Positions 3,266 through 57,648 of a DNA stretch of 64,000 nucleotides are shown piece by piece (the first letter of the stretch is position 1; the number at the start of each line of letters is the position of its first letter). Origin of the DNA: Paenibacillus curdlanolyticus YK9 (lineage in GTDB: Bacteria > Bacillota > Bacilli > Paenibacillales > Paenibacillaceae); the NCBI RefSeq assembly GCF_000179615.1, contig NZ_AEDD01000009.1, positions 124,001-188,000 of the forward strand, written 5' to 3'. A model generated the notes under the pieces. It worked only from the letters and a program-made list of their open reading frames with translations, had not been told where the DNA came from and did no database searches. Both the position numbers and the translations under genes were made by a program.

Positions 3266-3721
3266 TTAATTAAAAAGCGCTTTTTTCGATTCAATCCGCT
3301 TGGTCATAGCGATACGCGTGCCCCGGCCGGATTCGCTCGTTACTTCAAATTGATCCATGAAATTTTCCATAATCGTGAATCCCATGCCCGAGCGCTCAAG
3401 CTCTGGCTTTGAGGTGTACAACGGCTGGCGGGCAAGCTCGAGATCCTCGATGCCGTTGCCCTCGTCACTGATTACCAAATGAATCGTCTCATTCTCGATT
3501 GACGCTTCGATGGTTACGAATTTAAGCGGATCGCTATCGTAACCGTGAATAATCGCATTCGTCACGGCTTCGGATACGACGGTCTTCAAATCATTAAGCT
3601 CCTCCATCGTCGGATCAAGCTGCGAGATGAAGGCAGCAACGGTGATGCGGGCAAACGCCTCATTCTCGCTGCGAGCCGAAAATGTCAGGTTCATCGAATT
3701 GGCAACGTTCGTCTCATTCAT
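3266..3721 (-). CDS. spoIIAB: Anti-sigma F factor, serine protein kinase
   Basis: A 151-residue GHKL-fold ATPase that binds and inhibits SigF and phosphorylates SpoIIAA. Visible motifs are the N box ([17 protein letters not shown], about residues 44-60), the G1 box ([10 protein letters not shown]) and the G2 region ([13 protein letters not shown]). The start ATG overlaps the spoIIAA stop by 4 bp (ATGA), so the kinase is translationally coupled to its substrate. Length fits the family (about 146). Confidence 0.96.
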
Positions 3722-10768: not shown

Positions 10769-11878
10769 TTAGATCAAATGAAAAGGCACGTAAGGCAGCC
10801 CGACCGCATCCGCCACCGCTTCGTTCGTCACCGCACCGTTGTACGTATTGACTCCTTTGCGAAGCGCCTCATCCTTGACAGCTGCGGCTAAGCCGCCGTC
10901 GGCAAGCATGCGGGCGTACGGAATCGTCACGTTCGTCAGCGCCAAAGTGGAAGTGCGCGGAACCGCGCCTGGAATGTTCGCGACTGCATAATGGATCACA
11001 TCATGCTTGACATATACCGGGTCCTTATGCGTCGTCGGCCGGTCGACGGTGGCAATGGATCCCCCTTGATCCACGGCAACGTCAACGATGACGGAGCCCT
11101 TCTTCATCGATTGCACCATCTCCTCGGTAACCAGATGCGGCGCCTTCGCCCCCGGAATTAGAACGGCGCCAATTAACAAATCCGCTTTTCGAACCGCGCC
11201 GGCGATATTTTGCGGATTCGACGCCAGCGTGCGAAGTCGTCCGCCAAACACATCGTCGAGGTAACGCATCCGGTCCGTGCTTTTTTCCAAAATAGCGACG
11301 TTCGCTCCCATCCCCAGCGCGATTTTGGCAGCGTTCGTTCCGACGATCCCGCCCCCAATTATGACGACATCTGCGGGCGCGACGCCGGGAACGCCTCCTA
11401 ACAATACGCCGCGTCCGCCATAAAAGGATTCCAAATACTGCGCGCCAAGCTGGACCGACATTCTCCCGGCTACCTCGCTCATAGGCGTTAGAAGCGGAAG
11501 GCTTCCTCCCGGCAGCTGAATCGTCTCATACGCGACGGCGCTTACGCCTCGCTCGACAAGTGCCGCAGCGAGAGCAGGAGCAGCTGCCAGATGCAAATAA
11601 GTAAAGAGCAGCATATCCGGTTTAAAATGGTCGTACTCCTCCGGCAGCGGCTCTTTTACCTTCATAATCATGTCGGCTGTTTGCCAAACGTCTTCTGCTC
11701 GATCCGCCAGCTCTGCGCCTGCATCCGCATAAGCATGATCAGCGAAGCCGCTTCCTGCCCCCGCTCCCTTCTGAACGATCACCTCATGCCCGCCTGCTTT
11801 CAAAATCTCCACGCCTGCGGGTGTCAGCGCTACGCGATACTCGCTGTTCTTGATTTCGGTTGGCACTCCGACTCGCAT
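10769..11878 (-). CDS. ald: Alanine dehydrogenase
   Basis: A 369-residue NAD-dependent enzyme interconverting L-alanine and pyruvate plus ammonia. It begins with the diagnostic [20 protein letters not shown]; pyruvate-binding K is in [13 protein letters not shown]. The Rossmann motif is [15 protein letters not shown] (about residues 168-182) and the catalytic Asp region is [15 protein letters not shown]. The frame opens earlier (11920), but the ATG at 11878 has GAGGAGGA and the conserved N-terminus. It lies divergent from the subtilase gene. Alanine catabolism supports sporulation in Bacillus, which suits this neighbourhood. No clear terminator is seen downstream. Confidence 0.95.
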
Positions 11879-46773: not shown

Positions 46774-48576
46774 TTAAGATTGAATAAGTACGGTACAGCC
46801 GAATGGCTTGACGATTGGCTGTTGCGCTCCCCACTCTCCGGCTGCTGTAGCCGTGTAGCGTTCGCCGCTGATGCCATCAACAACCGCGCTGCCGCCCACC
46901 GCCGTACCTTCTAGGTTCAACTGAGGCACGTTAATAGGGTTAAACCCGTTATTGATGACGACGAATGCCGTTTCCTCCGCCGTGCGTCGAATGAACCCGA
47001 AAGCGTTGTTCGCTTCATCCACAAACCAAATCCGCATGCTTCCGCTAGTAAGCGAGGCGTGTTTCTTGCGCAGTGCGATCATCGTTCGATAGGTATCGAA
47101 TATCGCGCGATCCTGCGCCTGCTCCTCCCATACCATCGGCTTTCTGCAATCGGGATCATTGTCGCCATGCATGCCAACCTCATCGCCGTAATACACGACA
47201 GGCATGCCGGGCATCGTCATTTGCAGGCATATCGCAAGCTGCATGCGCGACGCTGCCGTCTCTCGCTTATTCCAGCCCCTGCCGCCATTGCGGCAAGCGG
47301 TCAAAAACCGTTCCGTATCATGACTGCCCAGCAGCTGCATCATTGCAGCGAACGCTTGCTCCGTATAACGGGCTTGCAAGCTAACAAGCAGCTCTGTGAA
47401 CGTCTCGGCGCCTATCGTCTGGCGGGCAAAGAAGTCTAGTGCAGCTTCGCGGAACAAATAATTCATGACGCCGTCGAACTGATCGCCATGGAGCCAAGGC
47501 GCCGCATCATGCATAAACTCCCCGACAAGCAGCAACTGGTCGTCAATTCCTTTAATTCGCTCGCGCAGCAGCCTCCAAAATCTCCGATCCACCTCGTTAG
47601 CGACGTCCAGCCGCCAGCCGTCTATCCCGGTCTCGCGAATCCAGTATTCCGCTACATCGAGGAAATAGTCTGCGACAGCGGGACAAGCCGTATTAAGCTT
47701 CGGCATCGTCGTCTCTGCGTTGCCGAACGTCTCATAGTTTGGAGCAGGCTCCTTCACGATTGGCGTGGAATCGATAAAATACCAATCGCGATATTTGGAG
47801 CTATCGCCGTTCTCTACGACATCCTGAAAAGCGAAAAACGCATCGCCGCTATGATTGAACACGGCATCAAGCACTACCCGTATGCCTCGCTCATGCGCTT
47901 GCTTCACAAACTGCTTAAACGTTTCCATGCTGCCAAAGGAAGGGTCAATCTCATAATAATTCGACGTATTGTATTTATGATTCGATGGCGAACGGAAAAT
48001 CGGATTCAAATACATGGCGTTAATGCCGAGCTCGACCAAATGGTCAAGCTTATCGATTATCCCTTGCAGATCGCCGCCATATAACGAAAGTGGCGTCGGC
48101 GGCACCTCGCTGTTCCACGGCTCGGCTTCCGCCGGGCTGATCGAGGGATCGCCATTGTGAAACCGATCGGGGAAAATTTGATAGAAGACCGCTTGCGGCG
48201 CCCAATCCGGAACGGCATGCACTTCATTGCGGCAAATATAAGGAAACTGAAAGCTGCCAGCCAGCTCGCGCTGCGCGGACACGCATCGTTCTCCTACCCA
48301 ATAGGACTCGCCAGCGTGCGTACGGACAAGAAACAAATAACGGACTTTGCGCTTCAGCGCAGGCAGCACAGCCTCATAATAATCGCTATAGCGGTCATTT
48401 CCGATTTTCTCCATCAAAATCGGCTGCTCGGACCCCGGCGAATCATACCGGTCGGCATACAGCGCTTCGCAGGACGCGGCGCTCCCTCTCTTTACTTTCA
48501 ATCTTACTTTCAGTCGGTACTCGTCCAACGGGTAGGCATAAGGCGGTTCGCTCACATGATGAATGGAACTCGGCAT
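46774..48576 (-). CDS. Intracellular GH13 alpha-glucosidase/cyclomaltodextrinase-like enzyme
   Basis: A 600-residue enzyme without signal peptide. An N-terminal CBM34-like domain (about residues 15-120) precedes the GH13 barrel (about 125-500). Catalytic residues: nucleophile Asp324 (GWRLDVANEVD), acid/base Glu353 (VGEFMHD) and Asp420 (GSHDTERF). The C-domain ends at 600. This layout is that of GH13 subfamily 20 (cyclomaltodextrinase, neopullulanase, maltogenic amylase), which hydrolyse imported cyclic or branched maltooligosaccharides. It is divergent from the LacI-type gene with an operator copy 65 bp before the start. AAAGGAGTG precedes the ATG. The exact substrate is not known from sequence. 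Confidence 0.88.
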   Translation of the reverse strand: MPSSIHHVSEPPYAYPLDEYRLKVRLKVKRGSAASCEALYADRYDSPGSEQPILMEKIGNDRYSDYYEAVLPALKRKVRYLFLVRTHAGESYWVGERCVSAQRELAGSFQFPYICRNEVHAVPDWAPQAVFYQIFPDRFHNGDPSISPAEAEPWNSEVPPTPLSLYGGDLQGIIDKLDHLVELGINAMYLNPIFRSPSNHKYNTSNYYEIDPSFGSMETFKQFVKQAHERGIRVVLDAVFNHSGDAFFAFQDVVENGDSSKYRDWYFIDSTPIVKEPAPNYETFGNAETTMPKLNTACPAVADYFLDVAEYWIRETGIDGWRLDVANEVDRRFWRLLRERIKGIDDQLLLVGEFMHDAAPWLHGDQFDGVMNYLFREAALDFFARQTIGAETFTELLVSLQARYTEQAFAAMMQLLGSHDTERFLTACRNGGRGWNKRETAASRMQLAICLQMTMPGMPVVYYGDEVGMHGDNDPDCRKPMVWEEQAQDRAIFDTYRTMIALRKKHASLTSGSMRIWFVDEANNAFGFIRRTAEETAFVVINNGFNPINVPQLNLEGTAVGGSAVVDGISGERYTATAAGEWGAQQPIVKPFGCTVLIQS

Positions 48577-48640: not shown

Positions 48641-48656
48641 AGGAAACCGGTTTCTT
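48641..48656. promoter_or_regulatory. LacI-family operator, copy 1
   Basis: AGGAAACCGGTTTCTT, containing the 12-bp palindrome GAAACCGGTTTC with the central CG typical of LacI-family sites. It lies between the divergent intracellular GH13 gene and the regulator gene. The same 16 bp occur at 57633-57648. Confidence 0.8.
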
Positions 48657-48719
48657 AATCTAGATTATCATACCTTCTAAGCTTTATCAAAGTTATTTAC
48701 GAGAGGACCTTTGTTCGCT

Positions 48720-49766
48720 ATGAGTAAAATTACAATAAACGATATTGCGAAAGCTGCGGGCGTTGCCAAATCGACCGTCTCTAAAGTATTAAACGATGCC
48801 TCGTCCATCTCAGAGGATACGAAGCGCAAAGTTCGGGAAATTATGAAAGACATGAATTATACGCCCAGCAGCATCGCAACCCAGCTAGCGAAGCAAAGCA
48901 GCAATACAGTTGGCTTGCTCATTGATTTATCGCGCAAAGGCGACTTTCTGAACCATTTCTTCTATCCTATTATCGGCGGTATCGAAAGTATCGTAGGCAA
49001 GCACCAGTATGAGTTAACGATCTGTAATTCCCACGAGTCATCGCAAACGACAACGAACGGTTATGTGCCTGATCCATCCTTTATGGATCGACTCGTCCGT
49101 AATCGCAAGGTAGACGGTTTGCTGCTAGACAGCTCGATCTGGACGCCTCGAACGGAGCTGCTGCTTGGCGAGCTGCATTTTCCGTATGTGCTGCTCGGGG
49201 ATGCGCCGATCGACGCCCCGTATAGCGCGGTTAATATCGACAATGAAGCAGGCGGGCGATTGCTTGCTGGCCATCTCATCAGCCAAGGCTACAAACGGCT
49301 GGCATTCGTCGGAGGCGAACGCGGCGAGCCACTGTTCGAAAGCAGGCTTAAAGGCTGCAGGCAAGCGCTTAGCGAGCAAGGGCTTGCGCTCGATGAATGC
49401 CATATCAAGCACGGCGTTGCGAATGAAGCCAATGGCCGCTTGCTCATGAATCAGCTATTGTCGCTCCCGATAGACGATCGTCCGGACGCCATCATCTGCA
49501 TGAACAATTACACGGCTTTCGGAGCATTGGAGTCCGCTCGAGACGTGGGCGTAGCCGTCCCTACAACGCTTGGCGTTGCAACCTTCGACGATTATCCCCT
49601 TGCACCGTATACAAGCCCGCCGCTTACCTGCCTAAGCATGGATACATTCGAGCTGGGGACGCAGGCAGCCGAGATGCTGATGGCGCGAATCGGCGACTAC
49701 TCTACCCGGGCGGAGAGCAGGCGCATTCCGCCGACCCTCATTGTGCGAGCTTCGACCAGCCGATAA
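48720..49766 (+). CDS. LacI-family transcriptional regulator
   Basis: A 348-residue repressor. The N-terminal helix-turn-helix reads ITINDIAKAAGVAKSTVSKVLND, with the hinge helix near TPSSIATQLAKQ. The periplasmic-binding-like effector domain (about residues 60-345) includes GLLIDLS, LLGDAPID and VGVAVPTTLGVATFDD. The ATG at 48720 is 12 bp from GAGAGGACC; a TTG at 48711 is in frame but too close to it. Flanked by the three glucan-active genes and one operator copy, it most likely controls them and itself, with a maltodextrin-type inducer. The inducer is inferred from context. Confidence 0.9.
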   Translation: MSKITINDIAKAAGVAKSTVSKVLNDASSISEDTKRKVREIMKDMNYTPSSIATQLAKQSSNTVGLLIDLSRKGDFLNHFFYPIIGGIESIVGKHQYELTICNSHESSQTTTNGYVPDPSFMDRLVRNRKVDGLLLDSSIWTPRTELLLGELHFPYVLLGDAPIDAPYSAVNIDNEAGGRLLAGHLISQGYKRLAFVGGERGEPLFESRLKGCRQALSEQGLALDECHIKHGVANEANGRLLMNQLLSLPIDDRPDAIICMNNYTAFGALESARDVGVAVPTTLGVATFDDYPLAPYTSPPLTCLSMDTFELGTQAAEMLMARIGDYSTRAESRRIPPTLIVRASTSR

Positions 49767-49784: not shown

Positions 49785-49823
49785 AAGCCAAGGGCTGCTC
49801 CATAATCGAGCAGCCCTTGGCTT
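49785..49823. terminator. Bidirectional terminator between the regulator and the secreted GH13 gene
   Basis: Perfect 16-bp stem AAGCCAAGGGCTGCTC/GAGCAGCCCTTGGCTT (49785-49800 and 49808-49823), 7-nt loop, with short T runs on both strands. Confidence 0.9.
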
Positions 49824-49867: not shown

Positions 49868-52800
49868 TTACAGGTCTTTCCAGCGTTGAACCGTCAGGTT
49901 CAATGTCTGTGCTCCACCGCTCGTCGTAATCGTCCGGTTGGCAATGTCAGTACCATTCGAGTTGATTTCAACGTTCGTCCATGCACCGCGCGTGAACTTA
50001 TACGAAATTGCTGTGCCTGCTGCTACTGGAATCGTAATCGAATAAGTTCCGTTTGCATTGCGCGTCATTTTGTAGTTCACATCAGCTGCATTCCAGGCGT
50101 TCAACGTGCTCGCGATGTAAACATCGGCGTTAGCAGGCGTGTTCGCTGGTACCGTCAAATTGATCGTCAAGCTGTCCGCTTGCGGTACGCCTGTCGAGAT
50201 CGAGCCGTTTACAAGCGTGTACGTGCCAACTCCGAACGAATAGTTCGCGGAATTGTTGTTATCCCACGATCCGCTGCCGTTATTGAATGCCGCTTTCAAG
50301 CCATTTGCAGCACCCAAGTCGATCGTTACAACGCTGTAGCCTGCAAAGGAAGAAGCCGTCATCGCTACGCCAGGAGCTGTCGTCCAAGTGGTCGTACCGT
50401 TCACGCTGTAGTGAATGTATTTGTTCGTGAAGCTCGTGTTTTTGTAATAGATCGTTACGGAATTCGTGCCAGCTTGCGGCGTTGTAACCGTCAGGCCCGT
50501 GCTTTCCGTCGATTTGTTGCCTGCTGCATCATACGCTTTAACCGTATACACATACGTCGTGTTCGCTACAGCAGTTGTATCCGTGTAGCTAGCCGTTGCC
50601 GTCGTTCCCTTAAGAACGCCGTCACGATAAACCTCATAGCCTGTTACGCCAACATTATCCGACGAAGCTGTCCAAGTCAGCGGTACAGTCGTTGTCGTTA
50701 CCGTTCCTGCTGTTACGTTAATTGGCGAAGTTGGAGCTTGCGTATCAACACCGCTAGGCGTAGTTACCGTCAAGCCTGTGCTTGCCGTCGATTTGTTGCC
50801 TGCTGCATCATACGCTTTGACCGTGTACACATACGTCGTGTTCGCTACAGCAGTTGTATCCGTGTAGCTAGTCGTTGCCGTCGTTCCTTTCAGAACGCCG
50901 TCGCGATAAACCTCATAGCCCGTTACGCCAACATTGTCCGTCGATGCTGTCCAAGTCAGCGGCACCGACGTTGCCGTCACCGTGCCTGCCGTAACGTTCG
51001 TTGGCGTCGTTGGCGCTGTTGGATCGCCGCCAGTTGGGCCTCCAGCAGTAATCGTGCCCGCATTGAACGTCCACGTACCGAGGTTAAATTTGTAATTCAA
51101 ACCGCCATTGTTATCCCATGTTCCGCTGCCATTATTGAATACAGCTTCCAATTGCGTTGCGTCGCCTACGTTAACCGTAAACTTGTTGTAGCCAGCAACT
51201 TCCGATGCAGGCATTGCTACGCCTGGCGCCGTCGTCCAAGTGCCGCCTACTGGACGGTAGTGGATGAAAGGTGTCGTGTAGCCTTGTTTGTAGTAAACAG
51301 TGACGCTGTTTGTTCCAGCTACAGGCGTCGTGATCGGGAGAATCGAGCTGAGTGCCGATTTATTGCCTGCTGCATCATATGCCTTGACGGTATATGAATA
51401 TGTCGTGCTAGGTTGTACCGTAGTGTCAGTGTACGACGGCGTTGCCGACGTGCCTTTCAGAACGCCATCACGGTAAATTTCATAACCCGTTACAGCAATA
51501 TTGTCCGTCGATGCTGTCCATGAGATCGTAGCGGACGAGCTCGTAACCGTACCAGCCGTCAGGTTAGCTGGCGTTGTAGGTGCTACTGTATCATTTTGTT
51601 GAACCGCATAGATTTTGGAAGAGTTCGCGTCAACCGATACCGTAATTTGTTTGCCTGTTACACCGCCCGATTGAACAGTAACCGTATCCGTACCCAATTG
51701 GTTCGTCAATACAGTGCCAACAGCCAGCGTGCTCTCCGTACGAAGCGGAATCGTAACCGTTTGCGTGCCGTTTGCTGCATTGCTAAATACGCCGATTACT
51801 TCTTGTCCTACGTTCGTACCGGAATCTACACGACGCGAGAATGCATACAGATTTTGTGCTGCCCACATTTCACGTTGTTTACCCGTACGCAAAGCTTCAT
51901 AATTTTTACGAATGCCGTTCAGTTTAGCAACAAACTGATACGTGTTCGTATTTTGGTTGAAGTAGTCTTGAATCACATTGCCATTGCTATCGCGCTTCAC
52001 CATCGACCAACGGTTCCACGTATCCGCGATGCCGCCCGTCATGATTTGATCGTTGCCGTTGCCTTTGTTTTGCTCCGTGCCTTGGAAGACAACTGGCAAG
52101 CCGCGCATTGTGAAGATGAAAGCAAGCGCATTTTGCAGTTTTTGTACATTGCCACCTGCTTCAGTCAAGAAGCGGTTGCGGTCATGGTTGTCGATGAACG
52201 TTACCATGTGGTTCTCGGAGCCGTTATAACGGAAATCCTGTGCCAGCGTGCTTTTCACGTTTGCTTCGAACGATTGGCCGTAAGCGAACGAGTTCAAGAT
52301 CGAGAAGAACATTGGGAAGTCGAGCATGCCCCACTCTGCATTGCTGCCTACCCAGCGGGAAACGAATTCAGCGTTGCCGTCAAAGTTTTCGCCGAACGTA
52401 TTTACGCCCAGATAGGATTGCAGCTCATGAAGAACGGAAGGATTAACCAGCTTCGCAGCATCGACGCGTGCGCCGTCTGCGCCGGTATAATCGAACCAGC
52501 CTTTAATCGAATCGAACATCGCTTGCTTCGCTTGCGCGTTGTCGAAGTCGATATCGTCCAATCCTGCCAAATCGTGATTTTCGAGATAGTCTTGCGTTGC
52601 TGCCGTGTAGCTGCCATCCACCAGCGACCAGTTGATATCGCCGTTATGGTGATACCATGCCGGGTTGTTGAACGGCGCTGCAGGCTGGAGACCCGCGATA
52701 TCGTAGAAGTTGTTCGTGTTGAGCATGTAGTCGCCCACATGGTTTGGCACGACGTCGATAATGATCTTAATGCCCATGCTGTGAGCCGTGTCCACGAGCT

Positions 52801-53272
52801 CCTTCAGCTTTTCTTTCGTGCCGAAGAAAGGATTCGCTTTGTTCGGGTCTTTAACATTGTAGCCGTGGTAAGCCGTGTTGCGGCCCGTACCGTTATTGTC
52901 ACGGCTCGTGATTTGAGGCTCAGCAATCGGAGAAATCCAGATTGCCGTGTAGCCCATGTTTTTGATATAAGGAAGCTTATTAATAATACCTTGCCAGTCT
53001 CCGCCTTTCATGTAGCGGAAGTCCTCGTCGGAATTCTCAGCATAACGAATAGCCGTGCCGGTTGCATTGTTCGAAGTATCACCGTCGGAGAAACGGTCCG
53101 TCATGATTTGATAAATCGTATCATTTTCATCAAGACCATTGCCAATCTTAGCAGCTTCTGCTTGTTTCGCTGGCAGCGGCTGTACGATTCCTGTCAGAAG
53201 AAACGCAGCAAGCAAGGCGATTAAAGAAAGTTTCCAAATCGACTTTTTCGTTTTACTTTTTGTCTTACGCAT
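49868..53272 (-). CDS. Secreted multidomain GH13 enzyme, CGTase-like (candidate isocyclomaltooligosaccharide glucanotransferase)
   Basis: 1134 residues from the ATG at 53272 (GGGAGG 8 bp upstream; an upstream in-frame ATG at 53311 lacks a site). Signal peptide about residues 1-41. The GH13 barrel (about 45-480) resembles CGTases: YQIMTDRFSDGDTSNN, GGDWQGIINKL, NTAYHGYNVKDPNK, IIIDVVPNH. Catalytic Asp271 (GARVDAAK), Glu295 (FGENFD), Asp364 (FIDNHDRNRF). A beta C-domain follows, then FN3 (562-649), CBM25-like (655-744), FN3 (752-839), FN3 (843-932), CBM25/26-like (936-1029) and a CBM20-like starch-binding end (1034-1134). The C-terminal module differs from that of classical CGTase. Four bp after the GH119-type gene, so co-transcribed. 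Specificity (amylase versus cyclising transferase) cannot be read from sequence alone. Confidence 0.85.
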   Translation of the reverse strand: MRKTKSKTKKSIWKLSLIALLAAFLLTGIVQPLPAKQAEAAKIGNGLDENDTIYQIMTDRFSDGDTSNNATGTAIRYAENSDEDFRYMKGGDWQGIINKLPYIKNMGYTAIWISPIAEPQITSRDNNGTGRNTAYHGYNVKDPNKANPFFGTKEKLKELVDTAHSMGIKIIIDVVPNHVGDYMLNTNNFYDIAGLQPAAPFNNPAWYHHNGDINWSLVDGSYTAATQDYLENHDLAGLDDIDFDNAQAKQAMFDSIKGWFDYTGADGARVDAAKLVNPSVLHELQSYLGVNTFGENFDGNAEFVSRWVGSNAEWGMLDFPMFFSILNSFAYGQSFEANVKSTLAQDFRYNGSENHMVTFIDNHDRNRFLTEAGGNVQKLQNALAFIFTMRGLPVVFQGTEQNKGNGNDQIMTGGIADTWNRWSMVKRDSNGNVIQDYFNQNTNTYQFVAKLNGIRKNYEALRTGKQREMWAAQNLYAFSRRVDSGTNVGQEVIGVFSNAANGTQTVTIPLRTESTLAVGTVLTNQLGTDTVTVQSGGVTGKQITVSVDANSSKIYAVQQNDTVAPTTPANLTAGTVTSSSATISWTASTDNIAVTGYEIYRDGVLKGTSATPSYTDTTVQPSTTYSYTVKAYDAAGNKSALSSILPITTPVAGTNSVTVYYKQGYTTPFIHYRPVGGTWTTAPGVAMPASEVAGYNKFTVNVGDATQLEAVFNNGSGTWDNNGGLNYKFNLGTWTFNAGTITAGGPTGGDPTAPTTPTNVTAGTVTATSVPLTWTASTDNVGVTGYEVYRDGVLKGTTATTSYTDTTAVANTTYVYTVKAYDAAGNKSTASTGLTVTTPSGVDTQAPTSPINVTAGTVTTTTVPLTWTASSDNVGVTGYEVYRDGVLKGTTATASYTDTTAVANTTYVYTVKAYDAAGNKSTESTGLTVTTPQAGTNSVTIYYKNTSFTNKYIHYSVNGTTTWTTAPGVAMTASSFAGYSVVTIDLGAANGLKAAFNNGSGSWDNNNSANYSFGVGTYTLVNGSISTGVPQADSLTINLTVPANTPANADVYIASTLNAWNAADVNYKMTRNANGTYSITIPVAAGTAISYKFTRGAWTNVEINSNGTDIANRTITTSGGAQTLNLTVQRWKDL
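50477..51019 (-). repeat. Tandem FN3-coding repeats in the secreted GH13 gene
   Basis: Two adjacent segments (50477-50746 and 50756-51019) encode almost the same FN3 module; the stretch coding TGYEVYRDGVLKGTTAT and AVANTTYVYTVKAYDAAGNKS is near-identical at the DNA level. This points to recent duplication or ongoing recombination. Confidence 0.85.
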
Positions 53273-53314
53273 CAATACAAACCTCCCAATTTTTAATTCC
53301 ATTGCATTCAAAGC

Positions 53315-56300
53315 TTAAAGATCTTTCCACTTCTGTACCGTCAATGCCAAGGTGGACGCGCCCGCTGGAACCGTATAGGTCCGATTCGCGATATCCGCGC
53401 CGTTCGACGCAACTTCCACATTGCTCCAAGTGCCGCGCGTAAACTTGTAGGTAAGTGCAGTTCCGGCTGTTATAGGCAGTGTGATTGAATATTTGCCGTC
53501 ACTGCCGCGCGTCAGCTTGTAGGCTGGATCAATTGGATTCCAGTTGTTCACGCTGCCTGAGAGATAGACATCCGCTGTCGCAGGCGTATTCGCAGGTACA
53601 GTAAGCGTAATCGTAACGCCCTGCGTGGATGGCGGAGGCGTCACTGGCACTCCAGCTGTTATCGTGCCTGAGCTGAAGGTCCACGTGCCAACGCCGAAGT
53701 TGTAGTTGTTGCCGCCATTGTTGTCCCATGTGCCAGAGCCGTTATTGAATACCGCCTCCAGGCCTGTTGCCGTGCCAATATCAACCGTGATCTTGAAGTA
53801 TCCCGTCACTTCCGCCGCTGCCATCTGCACGCCTGGTGCAGTCGTCCATGTTCCGCCCGTCGGACGGTAGTGAATATAAGGCGTTCCATAGCCCGGCTTG
53901 TAGTAGACGGTTACTTTGTTCGTAGTCGGTACTGTGAGCGTTACGCTCACCGGCGTGCTCAATGCGGATTTGTTTCCTGCAGCGTCTACCGCACGCACCG
54001 TGTACGCATGCGTAGCGCCTGGCGTACGACCGTTGTCGGTATACGATAATGAAGTCGTCTGTACGATGACAGCACCGTCACGCAGCACTTCATAGCTTGT
54101 AACGCCCACATTATCAGTCGACGCGCTCCAGCCAATCTGTACGGACGTCCCCGTCGATGCAGCTGTTGCCGTCAGGCCAGCTGGCACTGTTGGCGCCACC
54201 GTATCTGCAGGTACTGGCAGCGTTACGCTTGCCGGTGCGCTCAATGCGGATTTGTTTCCTGCAGCGTCTAGCGCACGCACCGTGTACGCATGCGTAGCGC
54301 CTGGCGTACGTCCATTGTCGGTATACGATAAAGAAGTCGTCTGTACGATGACAACGCCGTCTCGCAGTACTTCGTAGCTTGTCACGCCTACATTGTCAGT
54401 CGACGCGCTCCAGCCAATCTGTACGGACGTTCCTGTTGCTGCAGCCGTTGCCGTCACACCCGCAGGCGTCGTTGGCGCCACCGTATCTGTTGGCTGCGGC
54501 GGCGTTGGCGCTCCAGACGTAATCGTACCGCCACTGAATGTCCAAGTGCCTAGACCGAAGGTATAATTCTTGCCGCCATTGTTGTCCCACGTCCCTGAGC
54601 CGTTGTTGAAGACGGCTTCAAGCCCTGTTGCGGTTCCAACATCAATCGTTTTCTTGAAGTAGCCTGCCGTCTCAGCTGCTGGCATTGCAACGCCTGGAGC
54701 GGTCGTCCACGTTCCGCCTGTTGGACGGTAGTGAATGTATGGCGCTGAATAGCCCGGCTTATAATAGATGGTCACTTCATTGCTTTGATTGTTCGTCGAG
54801 AAGCTGATCAGCGTGCTCTTGCCAGACACGTTGCCGGCAGCATCCTTCGCTGTCACCTCGTACGAATAGGACGTGAGCGAAGCAAGCCCGCTATCGGTAA
54901 ACGTCGGTGTCGTGCTCGTTCCGACTACTGTGCCATTGCGAGAAATTTCATAACTCGTTACGCCTTTGTTATCCGTCGAAGGTGTCCACGAAAGCGTAAT
55001 CGTCGTACGGGATTGCGATGGCGACGTTACGTTCGTCGGAACAGTCGGAGCTTCCGTATCCGGCACGATCGGTTTATCCGTAATGAACGGATAGGTTCCT
55101 TTAATCGTTCCGTTAACGTCTTCTACGATTTTTCCGCCTTCGTTTTTGTACGTGCCTGCGCCTACATATACCGTTTGAATATCGCTCTTCGTTACATTGC
55201 CTTTAGCATCAACTGCCTCAATGTAATAATCGACGAGCTGGTCGCGATAGTCGCCCAAATACGTGTAGAACAGGTCGCCTGTTTCTTGCGCCTTCAGCTT
55301 CTGCAGCACCGCAGTTGTCGAAGCCTGCCAAGCCACGCCGTTCATATCCGGCTTCATATCGCGGCGGTTCATGCTGTAGCTGACCCAATCGCTTACTTTA
55401 GCCGGGTCGATGTTGCTGACGCCGGAGGCTGCCAATTGTGTCGGGTTGTAGACGCGGAACGTATTGTCGGCTGTGTCAGCCGTTTTGTCGCGATGCGTGC
55501 GAACTTTGACTTTAATGTCGTTGATGCCGCTCACATCGTACGCGTACGTATAAACTGCAAACGTATTATCGAAGTATTGCGTCGTCCAGCCTTCCGACTT
55601 GTCCTTGTTTACGCTGCCTGGGTTGTACGGCCAACGCTGCGGCCACCAAACCGAAGGACCAGTCGCATCCTTTGCCAGCTGCTGCTGTACATACGGTTTA
55701 GAGAAGAACAAGGATTGGTTGAATGAAAGCGTCGGTTTAACCGAATCGTCCACATTCTCGTCGTAATAACCGAATCCTGAATCCATTGCTGGAATGAGGA
55801 AGTACCACGACAGCTCGGCAGGGTTCGCGCCGCCTGCATAATCGCGGCTCGCATCGCCCTTCGTCGGGAACGACAGCATCCATGGATTCAACTGGTTGCC
55901 CGGAGGAGCTACTTGGCGGTCAAGCGTTGTTGTCGGCTGCCAGTAGTTCGGATGGTCACCCAGCCAGATTTGCTCAGCTGTTTGCGCATAGTTGAGCGCT
56001 GCCTGCAGCAATGCGAAGTTGCGCTCCAGGTAGTGATAGCCATACTCGAACGATACCGTCATGCCATCCTGCTCGCCATTGATGTTCTTCTTCGGCTCGA
56101 AGTTCGTTCCGTTGACTCGGTTGAAATCAGCGAATTGTCCTTTCCAAATGCCGAATGGCAGCTTCCAGTGATGCCACTGCGGATCGGATGAAGAGTCCCG
56201 CGTATCGATCCAAGAGCCATCCTGAACGTGTACCACATCGTTAGCCGCAGGCGTGTTGGTGCGCAGGTACTCGTCGATACCCATGCCTTTTACGCCGCTG

Positions 56301-57514
56301 TCAGCGTAAGTAACGTTGCCTGCATTACGCCAAGTTTCTTCGGAGCCTGCACGTCCGCTTGCATTGTCGCCGTCATGCGCGATGACGAAGAACTGCTTTT
56401 GCGACGAAATGCCTTCGAACGGCTTAATATCCTTGGCTGTCACAGAACCTTGGTAACCTTCTTCCCATGACTCAGCCTGCGCAACAGGTACGCCAACGAT
56501 TTTGGACTCTGTACCTGTCGTTGGGTTTACGTACTTAACCCAGTGCGGAGTCGAAGCAAATGGGAACTTATTACGAACAACTTGCGCCTCGTTGAACATC
56601 GGCTGCGAGATCCACGAGCCTACTGTGCTCACGTTTTGCAAGTCTGCACGGTTAGGCGGCGACACCATCGTATCTACGCCTGGATCGTTCAAGTAAGGAT
56701 AATCCTTGAGCGTCCGCGAGAAATGGTTATTGCCGATTACCGACCATTGAATCCCCATCTTCTCAAGCACCGGAATAATCCGTTCCGAGAAGCCAAGCTC
56801 TGTCGGGAAATACCCTTTGGACGATTGGAACGAGTTGCCCAAGAAGTTAGGCTGTGCGAACACGACATTCTGATAGATGAGATCTTTCAGCATGTAGTCG
56901 TTGCCAACCAGCGGTCCCATCGAGTGATGGCCTGAAAAATGGATCAAATCCATCGTTCGGTTGCCAAGCGTCGTCTTCAGCGTGTCATACGCCGTCTTCC
57001 AAGGCGCTGCCCAGTTCGTATTGGAGTAAGCAGCAATCCCGCCATGCGACACCAGATCGTTGACGTTCGTCACGGCTGAGCCAGACATCGTTACCTGCAT
57101 TTGCGCCTGTGGATAATTCTGCTTAAGCGTAGTCGCTACGCTCCACGGCCATGTCAGATACGCGCCTACCTTCGCATGATGCGAATAGTAGCTAACGAGA
57201 TCGTCATGCGGCATTGGATTGCCATTGGGCAAATAATACGGGTAATTGGCTGGCGGATTTTGCTTCAGCTCGATGACTTGGCCATCGTACATGTACCGGA
57301 TTGGCGCTCCGACAGCAGCCGATGAATAGCCGGTCGTGTCGTAGTAAGGCCAAAAGTTAGGCATATGATTGTGGTACACGTGGGATGCCGCAATCTCTGC
57401 ATTCGCTTTAGGCGCAGACACGCCAAGAGCAAACGATTGCACAGACAGCAAAGCAAAAAGTCCCATCGTGACGAACTTTCTCGCTCTCTTGCTCGACTTG
57501 GTCCCTGTAAACAA
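53315..57514 (-). CDS. Secreted GH119-type alpha-amylase with FN3 and starch-binding modules (IgtZ-like)
   Basis: 1399 residues. Signal peptide 1-39 (ends PKANA). The catalytic part (about 40-650) begins AASHVYHNHMPNFWPYYD and fits family GH119, a relative of GH57. Candidate catalytic residues are Glu239 (FPTELGFSE) and Asp381 (IAHDGDN), the positions expected from published GH119/GH57 comparison. A linker domain (about 650-815) is followed by FN3 (820-908), CBM25-like (912-1000), two near-identical FN3 (1012-1100 and 1105-1194), CBM25-like (1199-1287) and a CBM20-like end (1298-1399). The founding GH119 member, IgtZ of Bacillus circulans, is also encoded next to a CGTase-like transferase (IgtY). 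A sigma-A promoter, a LacI-type operator and a cre-like site lie upstream. GGGGAGG precedes the start codon. Confidence 0.83.
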   Translation of the reverse strand: MFTGTKSSKRARKFVTMGLFALLSVQSFALGVSAPKANAEIAASHVYHNHMPNFWPYYDTTGYSSAAVGAPIRYMYDGQVIELKQNPPANYPYYLPNGNPMPHDDLVSYYSHHAKVGAYLTWPWSVATTLKQNYPQAQMQVTMSGSAVTNVNDLVSHGGIAAYSNTNWAAPWKTAYDTLKTTLGNRTMDLIHFSGHHSMGPLVGNDYMLKDLIYQNVVFAQPNFLGNSFQSSKGYFPTELGFSERIIPVLEKMGIQWSVIGNNHFSRTLKDYPYLNDPGVDTMVSPPNRADLQNVSTVGSWISQPMFNEAQVVRNKFPFASTPHWVKYVNPTTGTESKIVGVPVAQAESWEEGYQGSVTAKDIKPFEGISSQKQFFVIAHDGDNASGRAGSEETWRNAGNVTYADSGVKGMGIDEYLRTNTPAANDVVHVQDGSWIDTRDSSSDPQWHHWKLPFGIWKGQFADFNRVNGTNFEPKKNINGEQDGMTVSFEYGYHYLERNFALLQAALNYAQTAEQIWLGDHPNYWQPTTTLDRQVAPPGNQLNPWMLSFPTKGDASRDYAGGANPAELSWYFLIPAMDSGFGYYDENVDDSVKPTLSFNQSLFFSKPYVQQQLAKDATGPSVWWPQRWPYNPGSVNKDKSEGWTTQYFDNTFAVYTYAYDVSGINDIKVKVRTHRDKTADTADNTFRVYNPTQLAASGVSNIDPAKVSDWVSYSMNRRDMKPDMNGVAWQASTTAVLQKLKAQETGDLFYTYLGDYRDQLVDYYIEAVDAKGNVTKSDIQTVYVGAGTYKNEGGKIVEDVNGTIKGTYPFITDKPIVPDTEAPTVPTNVTSPSQSRTTITLSWTPSTDNKGVTSYEISRNGTVVGTSTTPTFTDSGLASLTSYSYEVTAKDAAGNVSGKSTLISFSTNNQSNEVTIYYKPGYSAPYIHYRPTGGTWTTAPGVAMPAAETAGYFKKTIDVGTATGLEAVFNNGSGTWDNNGGKNYTFGLGTWTFSGGTITSGAPTPPQPTDTVAPTTPAGVTATAAATGTSVQIGWSASTDNVGVTSYEVLRDGVVIVQTTSLSYTDNGRTPGATHAYTVRALDAAGNKSALSAPASVTLPVPADTVAPTVPAGLTATAASTGTSVQIGWSASTDNVGVTSYEVLRDGAVIVQTTSLSYTDNGRTPGATHAYTVRAVDAAGNKSALSTPVSVTLTVPTTNKVTVYYKPGYGTPYIHYRPTGGTWTTAPGVQMAAAEVTGYFKITVDIGTATGLEAVFNNGSGTWDNNGGNNYNFGVGTWTFSSGTITAGVPVTPPPSTQGVTITLTVPANTPATADVYLSGSVNNWNPIDPAYKLTRGSDGKYSITLPITAGTALTYKFTRGTWSNVEVASNGADIANRTYTVPAGASTLALTVQKWKDL
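53933..54481 (-). repeat. Tandem FN3-coding repeats in the GH119-type gene
   Basis: Segments 53933-54202 and 54215-54481 encode two FN3 modules that differ at only a few residues (shared TSYEVLRDG and DNGRTPGATHAYTVRA). Their DNA is nearly the same over about 250 bp. Confidence 0.85.
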
Positions 57515-57543
57515 AATGATAAACCTCCCCTCTTTTCTCTCTA

Positions 57544-57557
57544 ATTAAGCGCTTTCA
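57544..57557 (-). promoter_or_regulatory. Candidate CcpA cre site before the GH119-type gene
   Basis: Minus strand TGAAAGCGCTTAAT matches the cre consensus TGWAANCGNTNWCA at 12 of 14 positions (the last two differ). It lies between promoter and start codon, suited to roadblock repression by glucose. Confidence 0.45.
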
Positions 57558-57632
57558 TAATGTAGCGGAAAACCGACTAACTACGCCGCATACAACAACC
57601 GAAAATAACCTCCTCACCGTGTGCATAATAAT

Positions 57633-57648
57633 AGGAAACCGGTTTCTT
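57633..57648. promoter_or_regulatory. LacI-family operator, copy 2
   Basis: AGGAAACCGGTTTCTT, identical over 16 bp to the copy at 48641-48656. It starts about 8 bp downstream of the predicted transcription start of the GH119-GH13 operon, a blocking position. Confidence 0.82.

Follow-up and report, generated by a model that had tools for sequence, protein, structure and literature searches.

The window analysed here, a stretch of 64,000 nt from Paenibacillus curdlanolyticus YK9 (contig NZ_AEDD01000009.1, positions 124,001 to 188,000), carries two adjacent genes, for a GH119-family alpha-amylase and a GH13 glucanotransferase-like enzyme, which lie in tandem on the minus strand with the GH119 gene first. 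Both proteins have signal-peptide-like N-termini, as judged by eye, and share a starch-binding tail; the pair recurs in related genomes, and a palindrome precedes most of the pairs. In our view the locus is probably a cassette for starch use, of the igtZ/igtY type, in which ring-making is coupled to import and ring-opening. In such a cassette, the product would be a ring closed by an alpha-1,6 bond, which would be imported, and the genes would be under repression. In the openly licensed literature we found one example of igtY and igtZ only, from Bacillus circulans, and no description of the regulatory or pathway context of the pair was found in openly licensed PMC texts. If our reading is true, the pathway is widespread and regulated in Paenibacillus and Cohnella; the locus offers probable partners of the two enzymes (a LacI repressor and a cytosolic hydrolase) and a searchable operator, and one residue may decide which bond closes the ring.

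The enzyme pair and its relatives

In the 1,399-residue protein the residues 239 and 381 are Glu and Asp, respectively, as a sequence-only reading of this DNA had pointed out, and both are invariant in two alignments of GH119 sequences (12 of 12 and 29 of 29). We take them to be the published GH119 catalytic pair, and they are predicted to act as a GH57-type Glu/Asp pair. The catalytic part of the protein gave a sole match, to PF03065 (GH57), with an E-value of 0.0091 over residues 230-265, a segment that includes E239; when the threshold was relaxed to E-values of up to 5, 28 of the 29 GH119 members matched the same profile, the best of them with 1.1e-5. The structure model has a predicted local distance difference test score (pLDDT) of 86.5 and places the Glu just after the strand 202-204 and the Asp at the end of the strand 343-349 (model numbering). 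Rows 1-18 of the 50 fold matches listed for this model (VIA) are labelled as, or otherwise known as, enzymes of GH57. A search of the GH119 profile against solved structures returned three weak unrelated rows only (E 0.26-0.91). The invariant pair, the PF03065 match and the model lying nearest to GH57 enzymes agree with the earlier assignment to GH119 and with a relation to GH57, and the identification of the protein as a GH119 alpha-amylase is well supported. At two other loci, L035 and L057, the GH119 match contains one stop codon inside the matched stretch; since the listed open reading frames (ORFs) begin inside the match, both genes look intact, with the stop apparently upstream of where the gene starts.

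The tails of the two window proteins are collinear, with 57% identity over 584 residues, and FN3 and CBM25 modules were found by Pfam in both. The sequence-only reading had both proteins ending in one array of FN3, CBM25-like and CBM20-like modules. This held for the collinearity and for FN3 and CBM25, but less well for CBM20: the last 107 or so residues score 27.6 bits as CBM20 in the GH119 protein and 21.1 bits in the GH13 protein, the latter falling below the cut-off of 23.3. Across 20 pairs, the tail lengths of GH119 and GH13 neighbours correlate (r 0.82). At the loci L044 and L061 the identity of the tails within the locus is 88% and 90%, exceeding that of the GH13 tail to any of 19 orthologous tails, which points to tail conversion; at the remaining 18 loci at least one orthologous tail is closer to the GH13 tail than the neighbour's tail is. 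From these identities it seems that tails have occasionally been copied between neighbouring enzyme genes.

An IgtY/IgtZ pair was reportedly described in Bacillus circulans by Watanabe et al. in 2006, and IgtY of this organism is said to form, by intramolecular transfer, rings closed by an alpha-1,6 bond. A published table gives IgtY (BAF37283) as 995 aa with CBM20 at 888-995, and IgtZ (BAF37284) as 1,290 aa with CBM20 at 1183-1290 (PMC9920598); the table mentions neither a regulator nor a cytosolic hydrolase, whereas the window locus has candidates for both. The window proteins were compared with IgtY and IgtZ by these lengths and CBM20 ranges. The two systems share a GH13 and a GH119 enzyme, encoded next to each other in the window and bearing consecutive accessions in the table; a CBM20 ends IgtY, IgtZ and the window GH119 protein, and the window GH13 protein has a CBM20-like end just under the cut-off. 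Pairs from other genera of the family are similar in length. The pairs of L191 (P. tritici; GH13 991 aa, GH119 1,288 aa) and L176 (P. phytohabitans; 1,003 and 1,289 aa) fit the lengths of IgtY and IgtZ. Among the eight named Paenibacillus pairs with GH13 first, the GH13 protein has 974-1,003 aa in seven and 1,172 aa in L142. Of the 15 named pairs, 14 were measured (all but L124), and in these the last residues of the two proteins are almost the same. The GH13 gene comes first in 17 of 20 pairs, an order also suggested for igtY by the consecutive accessions; GH119 comes first in L031-L033 and in the window, all of one genus. The igtZ/igtY arrangement that the sequence-only reading had pointed to finds support in the enzyme families, in the repeated occurrence of the pair and, among relatives, in protein length and the position of CBM20, but the gene order of the window is reversed.

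In 34 loci of other family members that have an enzyme with about 79% identity or more to the window GH13 protein, GH119 is close by in 20. At a threshold of at least 77% identity, it was found in 52 of 295 sampled Paenibacillaceae genomes, and the earlier suggestion that only this organism can use the sugar is not supported as worded. It is present in 22 of the 33 GH119 genomes; conversely, 30 of the 52 genomes that have it are without GH119 (neither count is corrected for kinship), so that the pairing is optional. With G015 and G100 added to these 30, there are 32 GH13-enzyme genomes without a GH119 match, of which 20 regions were examined. In a class sample of 398 genomes, the enzyme (E 1e-110 or better) occurs in 12, which belong to 2 of 146 genera, all in the family of the window. 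At least 15 of 80 named loci have a GH13 orthologue; this is a lower bound, as the flanks of many of these loci are truncated where the contig ends. Named and unnamed loci share genomes, and their counts are not additive.

Several of these results weigh against an igtY/igtZ identity, namely the many GH13-enzyme genomes without GH119, the greater lengths of the window proteins (GH13 1,134-1,147 aa against 995; GH119 1,399 aa against 1,290), which proteins from Cohnella and the genus of the window share, and the CBM20 end of the GH13 protein, which stays below the Pfam cut-off; moreover, orthology to IgtY and IgtZ rests on family, length, architecture and context. By analogy, we still regard an igtY/igtZ-like identity of the window pair as likely.

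At two Cohnella loci, L138 and L202, the neighbour of GH119 is an ORF of 2,005-2,102 aa with a GH13 domain. We rejected it as an enzyme of the IgtY kind because of its length, its Lys-His (K-H) pair (see below) and its different C-terminus.

The acceptor side of the GH13 enzyme

The window GH13 protein matches PF00128 with 180 bits, and its best solved sequence matches are cyclodextrin glucanotransferases (CGTases). With the CGTases (GH13_2) it shares the GH13 catalytic domain and several residues on the donor side, and its clade has kept the catalytic Asp/Glu/Asp triad, two active-site histidines and the donor-side Asn-Arg. The sequence-only reading, which had it keeping CGTase landmarks, was right as far as the triad and the donor side are concerned; several acceptor-side residues differ. 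The positions of Tyr195, Trp101, Trp258 and His233 of CGTases are changed in the window protein. At position 195, whose Tyr or Phe we take to be the central aromatic residue of CGTases, 38 of 40 aligned GH13-clade rows have His, the window protein among them, one has Tyr and one Asn. The motif FGENFDGN is found in 38 of the 40 rows. On the acceptor side, DAAKL likewise occurs in 38 rows, with KM in L110 and SS in L111. The K-H pair stands at this place in the CGTase, in one amylase from the genome of the window and in the GH13 ORFs of L138 and L202, and the His that follows the Lys in CGTases is absent from all 40 rows.

The protein also has a different tail, as had been proposed: in the window GH13 protein no Pfam match to Alpha-amylase_C or TIG was found at 1e-3, and in the Pfam annotation an FN3/CBM25 tail takes the place of the CGTase domains C and E. 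The classical CGTase barrel is followed by domain C, a TIG domain and a CBM20; Alpha-amylase_C and TIG are both present in a CGTase-architecture protein of the locus L109, to which the window protein is about 33% identical. With this low identity, the different tail and the altered acceptor residues, a plain CGTase was rejected.

It is nevertheless conceivable, if unlikely, that the enzyme is a normal CGTase making cyclodextrins, or a close 4-alpha-glucanotransferase, which has lost the CGTase tail, and that its rings, if any, have alpha-1,4 bonds only. The solved CGTases as best matches and the kept triad would agree with this, and cyclodextrins would be no less suitable a substrate for the linked cyclomaltodextrinase-type enzyme. 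Furthermore, 6wni, one of the fold-match rows of the GH13 model, is titled a CGTase with only three domains, so that the missing classical tail is not decisive. Against an ordinary CGTase stand the 33% identity, the His at the Tyr195 position and the lost His after the Lys, the separate CGTase-architecture gene that L109 has alongside its member of the GH13 clade, and the lengths and pairing that match IgtY.

We think it still less probable that the enzyme is a hydrolase (a maltogenic or endo-amylase) and the pair a two-enzyme starch degrader yielding linear sugars. Many amylases are among the fold matches, and one-mismatch palindromes stand before two other large secreted GH13 genes of the genome, as they would in a general starch regulon. 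However, the clade lacks the K-H pair that the compared amylase and CGTase rows keep, several loci have a cyclomaltodextrinase-type gene close to the GH13 gene, and the layout matches IgtY.

An alpha-1,6-forming, IgtY-like enzyme remains our preferred reading: a cyclic isomalto-type product is suggested, by analogy, by the resemblance to IgtY, the clade-wide change of the acceptor site and the linked cyclomaltodextrinase-type gene. Some observations on the protein itself speak against it or fail to favour it. The lost histidine, which relatives acting on alpha-1,4 bonds keep, fits a changed acceptor but is no proof of alpha-1,6 transfer. With a pLDDT of 64.7, the model of the GH13 protein is of low quality and does not allow subsites to be placed; its fold matches are GH13-type enzymes whose subfamilies are not separated, and a small GH13 tree could not resolve 6 of its 10 inner branches.

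The palindrome, the LacI regulator and the proposed fate of the ring

The perfect palindrome GAAACCGGTTTC occurs in two exact copies in the window, one before the enzyme pair and the other between the genes for a LacI-family regulator and for a second GH13 enzyme, of 600 aa. When the 400 bp upstream of the first gene were scanned for sites with at least 11 of the 12 bases, 17 of 19 pairs had one, as did 18 of 19 loci with GH13 alone but only 1 of 15 with GH119 alone; among random stretches of the same loci the figure was 91 of 4,000. One of the 15 GH119-only loci, L055, is in fact a pair whose GH13 ORF had been missed, with an 11/12 site at 3629. At L036 and L054 the palindrome lies 622 and 401 bp upstream, beyond the distance scanned, and within 700 bp all 14 named pairs measured have it. 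At L126-L128, GH119 is accompanied by the palindrome and the GH13 gene was not found within the sequenced stretch examined. Upstream of the lone GH119 gene of L038, L039, L041-L043, L047 and L048, all of genus g6, a different palindrome, GCAAACGTTTGC, is seen; it was the best partial match in 7 of the 8 GH119-only loci of this genus.

Genome-wide, six exact sites were found, as against none for the reversed control. The segment VAKSTVSKV, which by its place in the LacI anatomy would be the recognition helix, is identical in the window regulator and in 22 of 22 orthologues that are 47-72% identical overall; these orthologues occur in 22 of the 54 loci examined. PtxS, a LacI-family protein of Pseudomonas, has been reported to bind TGAAACCGGTTTCA, whose core palindrome is GAAACCGGTTTC (PMC11678583); this makes GAAACCGGTTTC, by analogy, a credible LacI-type operator. 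The genes that PtxS controls are for 2-ketogluconate, a pathway unrelated to that of the window.

Some of the sites count against this reading. Two of the six exact ones flank another LacI-family gene with the helix LSPTTISKV, which means that there is no one-to-one match of palindrome and regulator, and two lie inside coding sequence. With up to two mismatches, the 42/43 sites found genome-wide are little above the 33/31 of the reversed control. As side observations, the exact sites around the second LacI-family gene are at 11283 and 12372 of L089, where an ORF of 1,122 aa follows, and the one-mismatch palindromes at 8360-8406 of L203 (a tandem pair) and 9434-9447 of L204, both in the window genome, precede GH13 proteins of 930 and 1,677 aa with starch-binding modules. 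With the mismatch count so near to the control, these two secreted GH13 genes are weak regulon candidates.

The 600-aa enzyme scored 613 bits against TVAII and 365 bits against the cyclic maltosyl-maltose (CMM) hydrolase. No signal peptide was seen by eye, and it is therefore probably cytosolic. Relatives with at least 40% identity are present in 9 of the 54 loci. At L109 the palindrome separates the GH13 gene from an ATP-binding cassette (ABC) importer facing that gene, and at L111 importer genes and a cyclomaltodextrinase-type gene accompany a related GH13 gene (46%), together with an ORF that looks LacI-like by eye. The proposed part of the importer is weakened by two findings: a CGTase-architecture gene adjoins the L109 importer, which need not serve these rings, and the nearest match to that importer in the window genome (46%, 53%) is on another contig, without the palindrome. 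Separately, CAAACGTTTG also precedes the importer gene of the window genome.

A pathway of the same overall logic is on record for Arthrobacter globiformis M6, whose cmmA-G genes lead from starch to a ring, ABC import and cytosolic hydrolysis, with CmmA as the single extracellular GH13 enzyme that makes rings from starch (PMC7676653). The pathway proposed here likewise would have a secreted GH13 ring-former, an ABC importer and a cytosolic GH13 hydrolase, but the CMM pathway has another ring and another hydrolase type. That the window enzyme makes some other alpha-1,6-containing ring, such as CMM, appears very improbable to us: the part of that paper available describes no GH119 partner for CmmA, and for the linked hydrolase TVAII is a better-scoring match than the CMM hydrolase.

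In the IgtY-like pathway that we prefer, the GH119 enzyme would act on granule-bound starch and release maltooligosaccharides, whose ends the GH13 enzyme would join by intramolecular transfer, an alpha-1,6 bond closing each ring. An ABC transporter would import the rings and the cyclomaltodextrinase-type enzyme would open them in the cytosol. The LacI-family protein would be a repressor whose GAAACCGGTTTC sites serve the pair, the regulator's own gene and the cyclomaltodextrinase-type gene alike, and this shared control would couple ring-making to ring-opening. More tentatively, and with slightly less confidence than doubt, we propose a Paenibacillaceae-wide regulon that makes a private sugar out of shared starch, in which IgtY-type enzymes make alpha-1,6 rings outside the cell, a LacI-family repressor couples this to ring-opening in the cytosol, GH119 was recruited in some lineages, and the loss of the histidine marks the switch from alpha-1,4 to alpha-1,6 closure.

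Layout of the locus

The features of the locus are listed in Table 1. The ORF coordinates of the sequence-only reading, 57514-53315 and 53311-49868 on the minus strand, are right. Its gap of 4 bp between the enzyme genes depends on the mechanical TTG start of the GH13 gene at 53311, which gives a protein of 1,147 aa; the ATG at 53272 seems the likelier start, and the gap would then be 42 bp. Between the GH119 and GH13 genes there is no terminator-like site in the hairpin listing of the region, where the total of 8 such sites is not above the mean of 12.3 in shuffled sequences.

Table 1. Features of the GH119/GH13 locus and their positions in the window
Feature	Position	Strand	Remarks
GH119-family alpha-amylase (IgtZ-like), secreted	53315..57514	minus	1399 aa; TTG start after GGGGAGG
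GH119 tail, residues 819-1399	53318..55060	minus	FN3, CBM25 and C-terminal CBM20 modules
GH13 glucanotransferase-like enzyme (IgtY-like), secreted	49868..53272	minus	1134 aa; ATG after GGGAGG
GH13 tail, residues 574-1147	49871..51592	minus	collinear with GH119 tail
Operator-like perfect palindrome GAAACCGGTTTC	57635..57646		120 bp upstream of GH119 start
Second exact copy of GAAACCGGTTTC	48643..48654		divergent region between LacI and cyclomaltodextrinase-type genes
LacI-family regulator	48720..49766	plus	convergent with enzyme operon; starts at ATG (MSKIT), the mechanical start being a TTG at 48711
GH13 cyclomaltodextrinase/neopullulanase-type enzyme	46774..48576	minus	600 aa; best solved relative TVAII (1bvz)
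Terminator-like hairpin, 16 pairs	49785..49823		between convergent ends of enzyme operon and LacI gene

The genes flanking the locus look like aspartokinase, efp and a spoIIIA cluster. Between the palindrome and the GH119 start lies ATGAAAGCGCTTAATT (57543-57558, minus strand), which is close to a catabolite-repression (cre) element.

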